From Nitrososphaerota archaeon (GTDB taxonomy: Archaea; Thermoproteota; Nitrososphaeria; Nitrososphaerales; Nitrosopumilaceae), in assembly GCA_026708305.1 (NCBI GenBank), contig JAPOVD010000007.1, forward strand, positions 1-64,000: DNA of 64,000 bases, in the 5' to 3' direction. Position numbers and translations under genes: made by a program. Every line of letters starts with the position of its first letter. Positions within the stretch are counted from its first letter, which is position 1. The notes under the pieces are model-generated. The model made no database searches. It was not told the DNA's origin and saw only the letters and a list, made by a program, of their open reading frames with translations. Positions 1 through 2,205 of the stretch are shown one piece after another.

Positions 1-363
1 GTTACTATATTGCACTTTGATATTGAAGATTTTACTTCCATAAAAAAAATACAGACTCCATATGAGATTTCGTCATTAATATTTGAATTATATTCCTTCA
101 TGTCGAAATTTTTTCTTACGCAACAATCATTATCATTTTTTATTGGAGGTGATAATTTTATGGTTTTATCTAATAATGATTATAAAAATCATACAGCTAA
201 ATTCATAGACATGGTTAATAAAAAGTTTAGATTAATTTTAAATTGTGGTGTTGGTAAAAACTCTACATCAAGAAATGCAGCTCAATCTGCTACAGAATCT
301 TTAGATATGATTAGAAAACTAAGAAGCTCAGGAAAGGATAAACCATTAATTTATGAACTTTGA
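1..363 (+). CDS. arfA: GTP cyclohydrolase III (ArfA type), 3' part only
   Basis: C-terminal ~120 residues of an archaeal GTP cyclohydrolase III (MJ0145 family), which opens GTP to the formamidopyrimidine nucleotide that starts archaeal riboflavin and F420 synthesis. The reading frame is open through base 1, so the start lies outside the window. Visible signatures are the FFIGGDN metal-site segment and the C-terminal pattern GVGKNSTSRNAAQSATESLDMIRKLR. The stop overlaps the TTG start of the next gene by 4 bp, and an ArfC-type reductase lies two genes on, so this is a riboflavin/F420 precursor operon. The family assignment is by recognition of the motif pattern; the cut N-terminus cannot be judged. 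Confidence 0.82.
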   Translation, partial: VTILHFDIEDFTSIKKIQTPYEISSLIFELYSFMSKFFLTQQSLSFFIGGDNFMVLSNNDYKNHTAKFIDMVNKKFRLILNCGVGKNSTSRNAAQSATESLDMIRKLRSSGKDKPLIYEL

Positions 364-1547
364 TTTTAAAGAATATTGGTGTATTTTATGGGAAAAATTT
401 ACGATATATTAATTCCACAAATTTAAAGATTAATAATCATTATTTTGATAATATTAGCAAATATTGTAGTAATGAAAACAATGAACCTATAATAGATTGT
501 GAAGGACTTATAATTTTACCTGGATTTATTAATTCTCATACTCATATTGGAGATTCGATAGCTAAAGATGTAAATCTTGATTTGACAGTTAATGAAAAAG
601 TAAATCCAATTTATGGAATTAAAAAACAAATCATAAATAACTCACTACCGACTCATCTCGAAAGCTATATGTATAGTACTTGTAAATCTATGATCAAAAA
701 AGGAATAACAACATTTGTAGATTTTCGAGAAGGTGGAATTCTTGGTGTAACCATGCTAAAAAAAATATTAAGATTAGTACCAATTAAATGTGTAATATTG
801 GGAAGAATAGACTATTATCAAACAAATGAACAGATTATTAAAAATCGATCAATCCCAAAAGACAAGCAAGAAGAATTACGTGTAGTATCAAACAGCGTTG
901 ATGGTTTGGGCATAAGCGGTGCAAATGAGTATAGTGATTCTGTCCTTGCACATTTTTCAAAAATAAACAAATTTAGAGCTATACATGCTGCAGAAACAGA
1001 AGCGAGTATAAAAAAATCAAAACAGCTAACTGGAAAGTCTGAAATACAACGATCGTTGCAAATCAAACCTCATTTCATAATTCATATGACATACGCTTCA
1101 AAATTTGATTTGCATATTGTACGTAAATATACTAATAACATTGTAGTTTGTCCACGTTCTAATGCAGCTATGGCTGAAAAGTTTCCAGATGTATATTCTA
1201 TGCTGAAACTAGGTTATAACGTTTCTCTTGGAACTGATAATGTTATGATAAATTCACCAGATATATTTAGGGAAATGGATTATTTATGGAAAACTGTTAT
1301 GTCTATAAATAATAAGCGAATTGCACCTTTGGACATTTTAAAAATGGCCACTGTTAATGCTGGAAAAATATTTAGAAACAAAGGTGTGATACAAAAAGGA
1401 TCAATTGCAGATTGCATTTTCATTAAAAAGCATGAAGTTGATTTGGACCCCATGCATGATCCTCATGCTGCAATAGTTCATCGTGCATCTGAATCATCAA
1501 TTAGTGCCGTTATGATAAATGGTAAAATAATACATGGTAAAATCTAG
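360..1547 (+). CDS. Amidohydrolase, TRZ/ATZ (deaminase-like) family
   Basis: Metal-dependent TIM-barrel amidohydrolase of 395 residues. The metal and catalytic set of the cytosine/triazine/S-adenosylhomocysteine deaminase group is visible: HTH at residues 60-62, H209 and E212 in IHAAETE, H242 in FIIHMTY, the VCPRSN strand (263-268), and D293 in GTDN. The start is TTG, overlapping the upstream stop by 4 bp. The end overlaps the ArfC-type reductase by 14 bp. It is thus translationally packed between two enzymes of archaeal riboflavin/F420 synthesis. Family membership is seen; the substrate is not. A pyrimidine deaminase or formamide hydrolase in the same pathway is the obvious inference, but other cyclic amidines cannot be excluded. 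Confidence 0.8.
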   Translation: MILKNIGVFYGKNLRYINSTNLKINNHYFDNISKYCSNENNEPIIDCEGLIILPGFINSHTHIGDSIAKDVNLDLTVNEKVNPIYGIKKQIINNSLPTHLESYMYSTCKSMIKKGITTFVDFREGGILGVTMLKKILRLVPIKCVILGRIDYYQTNEQIIKNRSIPKDKQEELRVVSNSVDGLGISGANEYSDSVLAHFSKINKFRAIHAAETEASIKKSKQLTGKSEIQRSLQIKPHFIIHMTYASKFDLHIVRKYTNNIVVCPRSNAAMAEKFPDVYSMLKLGYNVSLGTDNVMINSPDIFREMDYLWKTVMSINNKRIAPLDILKMATVNAGKIFRNKGVIQKGSIADCIFIKKHEVDLDPMHDPHAAIVHRASESSISAVMINGKIIHGKI

Positions 1548-2205
1548 ACCATACATCATTTTGAGTGCAGCCATTTCGTTAGACGGTAAAATTTCTACAA
1601 AATGTGGCGATTCAAATATTTCAAGTGTTGATGATAAAATACGTTTACATAAATTACGTAATACTGTTGATGGTATATTAATAGGAATAAATACTGTTAA
1701 ACAGGATAATCCATTACTAACTATAAGATATATTCAATATAGTAAACATCCTGTTCGTATAATATTGGATTCTAGAGGTTTGATATCATCTAACACTAAA
1801 ATAATAAAAACATCTGATAAATTTAAAACTATAATAGTAGTCTCTGAGAAAATATCTAAAAATAACATAAATAGACTAAAATGTGCACCAGTTGACATGA
1901 TAATATGTGGTAAAAACAAAATAGATATAAAAAATCTACTTGTTCATCTAGTAAAAAAATATTCTATGTCTAGAATTCTTGTGGAAGGCGGAAGTCATAT
2001 AAATTGGAGTTTTATAAGTGAAAATATTTTTGATGAGTTGATAGTGACAATAGCACCTTATTTAGTTGGAGGTACTAATTCGACCTCATTTTTATCTGGC
2101 TCTGGCTTATGTAAGATTAAAGACTCGCCTAAATTGAAATTAAAAAATGTCACGCGTATAAATAATGAATTAGTACTTAATTACCTTAATCAAGATCATC
2201 TTTAA
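1534..2205 (+). CDS. arfC: 2,5-diamino-6-ribosylamino-pyrimidinone 5'-phosphate reductase (ArfC/RibD2 type)
   Basis: A 223-residue stand-alone RibD C-terminal-type reductase, about the length of archaeal MJ0671-type enzymes. They reduce the ribosyl side chain of the GTP-derived pyrimidine to ribityl using NAD(P)H. Motifs: N-terminal strand ILSAAISLDGKIST, IDGILIGINTVKQDNPLLT-like cofactor segment (residues ~45-65), and the C-terminal RILVEGGSHINWSFI block. The gene starts inside the amidohydrolase and its last 20 bp overlap the end of tfe on the other strand. No deaminase domain is fused, so the deaminase needed for riboflavin must be a separate protein. Confidence 0.88.
   Translation: MVKSRPYIILSAAISLDGKISTKCGDSNISSVDDKIRLHKLRNTVDGILIGINTVKQDNPLLTIRYIQYSKHPVRIILDSRGLISSNTKIIKTSDKFKTIIVVSEKISKNNINRLKCAPVDMIICGKNKIDIKNLLVHLVKKYSMSRILVEGGSHINWSFISENIFDELIVTIAPYLVGGTNSTSFLSGSGLCKIKDSPKLKLKNVTRINNELVLNYLNQDHL

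Follow-up and report, generated by a model that had tools for sequence, protein, structure and literature searches.

The amidohydrolase gene and its operon

The analysed window comprises 64,000 nucleotides at the start of contig JAPOVD010000007.1 from a Nitrososphaerota archaeon (assembly GCA_026708305.1), whose genome of 836,782 bp is 95.5% complete. A partial gene for GTP cyclohydrolase III (arfA), a gene for an amidohydrolase and the reductase gene arfC follow each other at its beginning (Table 1). Genes of the same type as this amidohydrolase gene are called amh here. The amh reading frame is intact, starts with TTG and encodes 395 amino acids. The overlaps of 4 bp with arfA and 14 bp with arfC given in the first-pass annotation were confirmed. 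The closest protein to the amh product is 71% identical, and the genome groups with Nitrosopumilaceae records (family f1).

In profile searches, the only Pfam domains matched by the product were PF01979 (Amidohydro_1, 124 bits) and PF07969. The protein passed the cut-off of NF005552/PRK07213, a family named "chlorohydrolase," over residues 2-388 (311 versus 294 bits). Scores were below the cut-off for the SAH/MTA deaminase family (52.9 versus 779 bits) and the guanine deaminase family (44.1 versus 375.4 bits). Neither the creatininase domain PF02633 nor a cytidine-deaminase-fold domain (TIGR00326 positions 1-140, or PF00383) was found in the protein by profile search. The TRZ/ATZ residue set H60, H62, H209, E212, H242, and D293, named in the first-pass annotation, is complete and is invariant in 42 riboflavin-linked sequences. 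An AlphaFold model built from five sequences was poor (pLDDT 41, pTM 0.37).

Table 1. Features of the window and related loci elsewhere in the source genome
Feature	Position	Strand	Evidence
arfA, GTP cyclohydrolase III, 3' part only	1..363	+	PF05165 68.9 bits, profile positions 128-236
amh, NF005552/PRK07213 (MJ0699-type) amidohydrolase, proposed riboflavin/F420-pathway pyrimidine deaminase	360..1547	+	311 bits, conserved operon, co-occurrence with arfC and arfA
amh active-site codon span	537..1241	+	Conservation in 42 + 21 + 6 riboflavin-linked sequences versus TRZ/ATZ paralogues
amh fingerprint codons D65, K88, E124, R266, N294	552-554, 621-623, 729-731, 1155-1157, 1239-1241		
arfC, 2,5-diamino-6-ribosylamino-pyrimidinone 5'-phosphate reductase	1534..2205	+	PF01872 163.8 bits; TIGR01508 194.7 bits, above cut-off
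Adenine-deaminase-like protein, 588 aa	14604-16367		PF13382 152 bits, PF01979 67 bits
arfA, 5' part (N-terminal half)	G000:C6:26110-26520		
Identical bases shared by both arfA parts	1-55 and G000:C6:26482-26536		
Creatininase (ArfB family)	G000:C1:98429-99064		PF02633
CofH-like proteins	G000:C3:5679-6719, C3:142102-143112, C8:11757-12776		

The missing 5' part of arfA was located on another contig of this genome, C6, which ends with it. Because the end of C6 and the start of the window share 55 identical bases within arfA, the two contigs can be joined; the truncation is an assembly break. Upstream on C6 lie the riboflavin synthase gene ribE (NF006767), ribB (TIGR00506), and ribH (TIGR00114), all above cut-off. 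The operon therefore has the order ribE-ribB-ribH-arfA-amh-arfC. Its 3' boundary is marked by convergent genes for TFE-alpha and Trm56. The earlier designation as a riboflavin/F420 operon was appropriate for riboflavin; its connection to F420 is only through an intermediate common to both routes, and cofH is found at another site in the genome. Three CofH-like proteins are encoded in this 837-kb genome, of which only one exceeds the CofH cut-off; the other two score 350 and 319 bits. Two non-homologous riboflavin synthases are used within related operons: the source operon has the bacterial type (NF006767), whereas archaeal RibC (TIGR01506) occupies the corresponding place in an f18 genome (L110:12476-12979 and L104:4583-5047).

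Gene order and co-occurrence in related genomes

Comparison of the arfA/arfC neighborhood across relatives upheld the linkage seen at the locus. The order arfA-amh-arfC was present in all 24 f1 (Nitrosopumilaceae) genomes of the draw, far beyond chance for 24 genomes of one family. Outside f1, amh-arfC was found in f14, f33, and f27, arfC-amh in f31, and arfA-amh in f18 and f30, with ribB-ribC-ribH ahead of the pair in an f18 genome. In f3, amh is accompanied by divergently oriented riboflavin genes, namely ribB, two lumazine-synthase-family genes, and arfA. An f15 genome (L073) has the order arfC-arfA-ribB-two lumazine-synthase-family genes-amh, plus a convergent creatininase gene. Within the order, arfA-amh-arfC recurs in f37, f38, f42, and f45, and is followed by a creatininase gene in f47 (L122-L125). 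No linkage of amh to rib genes was seen in f9, f21, and part of the f11, f15, and f30 genomes. That amh-rib linkage recurs in different gene orders carries more weight than one inherited operon would. Genomes G103 and G018, which contain amh-arfC operons (L102 and L103), lack a match to GTP cyclohydrolase III; GTP may be opened by a different enzyme in these organisms.

Co-occurrence was counted in 61 genomes of the order, with amh called at 200 bits or more and ArfC at 95 bits or more. Both were present in exactly the same 34 genomes and neither in the remaining 27, corresponding to a nominal Fisher value of 6e-18 for related genomes that are not independent. A cleaner sign of co-occurrence than this value is the split within family f41, where one genome has amh plus ArfC and one has neither. 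In the phylum draw, all 59 genomes above the ArfA cut-off had an amh-family match, with 8 of the 12 f9 genomes counted from a weak match only. Divergent amh members in f9, f11, f15, and f21 were confirmed by tree or family profile. In f14 and f33, amh and ArfC are present and an ArfA match is absent.

RibD_C proteins occur without amh in f2, f22, f34, and part of f21. These groups were considered as counter-examples and dropped, as ArfA is also missing there. Among the inspected neighbors of their arfC-like genes, there was no deaminase gene. RibD_C-family proteins of genomes lacking both ArfA and amh were recorded at L090, L091, L093, and L094.

Probable pathway step of the amidohydrolase

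Riboflavin-linked members (42 sequences) and TRZ/ATZ paralogues (8 sequences) were separated with 100/100 support in a maximum-likelihood tree. Among 42 + 21 + 6 riboflavin-linked sequences, D65, K88, E124, and N294 never vary, and R266 is missing from only two. The compared paralogues carry other residues at these five positions, with one exception at E124. The longer proteins L163 and L165, from genomes lacking ArfA, resemble the paralogues at these positions; L165 coincides with a row of the outgroup, which leaves L163 as the sole new sequence in this check. The five fingerprint residues may serve substrate recognition. NF005552 was matched at E <= 1e-60 in Methanocaldococcus jannaschii, Haloferax volcanii, and Methanosarcina acetivorans and in no bacterial control. 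By profile comparison with structures, the nearest solved relatives are deaminases, with TM0936 the closest and MTA/SAH deaminase (4f0r), guanine, and 8-oxoguanine deaminases also matching. Guanine deaminase takes the 2-amino group off a similar ring, so the chemistry proposed below is ordinary for the superfamily.

The early archaeal route consists of ArfA, ArfB, ArfC, deamination, and dephosphorylation. It had been expected that ArfB would be absent where amh occurs. This was not the case: exactly one creatininase (PF02633, the ArfB family) was found in each of the 24 f1 genomes. Elsewhere, its gene adjoins arfA in f27, lies by arfA/arfC in f9 and f15, and follows arfC in the f47 operon. The presence of ArfB in genomes with amh strengthens the deaminase reading. 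The parallel expectation for RibD was borne out, as the TIGR00326 search detected no RibD deaminase domain in any f1 genome. A separate RibD-type deaminase was sought in the source genome with TIGR00326 and PF00383, and the sole cytidine-deaminase-fold protein obtained was ComEB/dCMP-deaminase-like and under the ComEB cut-off. Other amidohydrolases were also considered as the missing enzyme. The source genome encodes three PF01979 proteins including the amh product; the other two are the adenine-deaminase-like protein of Table 1 and a protein of 478 aa that, from its sequence, resembles a hydantoinase or dihydroorotase. Deamination is the step left for amh.

We therefore consider it highly likely that amh encodes the pyrimidine deaminase of the archaeal riboflavin/F420 pathway, with 2,5-diamino-6-ribitylamino-pyrimidinone 5'-phosphate as the predicted substrate. 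The first-pass annotation had preferred a deaminase as a guess, which is now supported by the operon context, the co-occurrence with arfA and arfC, the lack of a RibD-type deaminase, and the separate creatininase. We infer both the reaction and its order relative to ArfC. In the proposed route, ArfA would convert GTP to the formamidopyrimidine phosphate, the separate creatininase-type ArfB would take off the formyl group, and ArfC would reduce the ribosyl to the ribityl moiety. In amh, a water molecule activated by a metal bound to H60, H62, H209, and D293 would then replace the ring 2-amino group by oxygen with release of ammonia, E212 and H242 acting as acid/base. The predicted product is 5-amino-6-ribitylamino-uracil 5'-phosphate, which after dephosphorylation would be common to the synthesis of riboflavin (RibH, RibE) and F420 (CofG/CofH). 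Use of the same deaminated pyrimidine for F420 has been described (PMC8498797). The pathway phosphatase is one further gap, and it is counted against the deaminase reading, as are the f9, f21, and part of the f11, f15, and f30 genomes in which amh is not linked to rib genes.

Formyl removal had been named as the alternative role, in which amh would be a formamide hydrolase with ArfB function acting on the ArfA product. The position of amh directly after arfA, with overlapping genes, fits this role, and amidohydrolase-superfamily enzymes are able to hydrolyze amides. The step is already provided for, however, because a separate creatininase is present, in sister lineages even in the same operon as amh (f47) or in one cluster with it (f15). 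The biochemistry of ArfB is established for M. jannaschii, a species in which the amh family also occurs, and assignment of amh to formyl removal would leave the deamination step empty. We regard this role as very unlikely. It appears less likely still that amh encodes a salvage enzyme that deaminates MTA/SAH, guanine, or cytosine and lies in the operon by happenstance. This reading would agree with the structural matches to TM0936, 4f0r, and the guanine deaminases, and with the vague database names of the family. Against it stand the family scores far below cut-off, the fully supported split from the TRZ/ATZ paralogues, and the differing fingerprint residues, and it would leave both the co-occurrence with arfA and arfC and the repeated operon linkage without explanation.

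The least likely of the alternatives is that amh deaminates at another point of the route, either once the phosphate has been removed or, as happens in bacteria, on the ribosyl compound before ArfC acts. The order of the steps is not fixable from sequence, and the translational coupling of arfC and amh would allow a joint complex with either order. However, a phosphate-bearing substrate would fit K88, which is invariant, and R266, and in archaea the reduction reportedly precedes the deamination, according to the account in PMC13028884 of the M. jannaschii reductase work of Graupner et al. (2002).

Extending the deaminase assignment beyond the locus, it is likely that all archaea making riboflavin and F420 via ArfA deaminate with a TIM-barrel amidohydrolase that is unrelated to the bacterial cytidine-deaminase-fold enzyme and recognizable by D65/K88/E124/N294, and that Nitrosopumilaceae and relatives keep it as a translationally coupled arfA-deaminase-arfC unit.

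Relation to known enzymes

The step had initially been described as unassigned, which requires a correction. According to PMC8305020, three gaps remained in the archaeal riboflavin pathway, and candidates for two of them were predicted by Rodionova et al. in 2017 (PMID 28073944). In Table 6 of that article, HVO_2483, with the remark "also predicted for MJ0699," stands after arfC and before the phosphatase gap; the entry probably denotes the deaminase step, a reading that is hard to avoid. Because NF005552 is found in both genomes and the 2017 prediction, like the operon described here, points to the step after ArfC, MJ0699 and HVO_2483 very probably belong to the same family as amh. The family and the deaminase idea are thus already known, and the gene described here is a further member of the predicted family. 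Neither a proven archaeal deaminase nor an experimental test of the MJ0699/HVO_2483 prediction was found in the literature searched, which covered few subscription papers. Archaeal deamination is described in the accessible part of a 2026 review, where an archaea-specific enzyme is not named (PMC13028884). New in the present work are the operon evidence from Nitrososphaerota, the case against ArfB, and the residue fingerprint, none of which was found stated elsewhere in the literature searched; the 2017 paper lay outside it.

A family already proposed for the pathway thereby gains strong independent support, and formyl removal, the main alternative, becomes unlikely. With the fingerprint, the assignment can be tested directly. 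Should it prove correct, two unrelated folds would clearly serve a single step of a central cofactor pathway, and many archaea, marine ones included, could have the misleading database name "chlorohydrolase" replaced.

Among known systems, the predicted proteins MJ0699 and HVO_2483 are the nearest counterparts, amh being the Nitrosopumilaceae member that is located in an arfA-amh-arfC operon. TM0936-type MTA/SAH deaminases and guanine deaminases share the superfamily and the metal and catalytic residues with amh and deaminate ring amines. They differ in forming a separate clade, in family cut-offs far above the amh score, and in their residues at the fingerprint positions. ArfB of the creatininase family (MJ0116) and bacterial BrbF act, like amh, in the early riboflavin route but belong to a different family. 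The amh product is proposed to perform the same step as bacterial RibD, the loss of the pyrimidine 2-amino group, so that a TIM-barrel amidohydrolase would stand in for the RibD domain of cytidine-deaminase fold used by bacteria. The two enzymes are unrelated in fold and motifs, and in RibD the deaminase domain is fused to an ArfC-like reductase.
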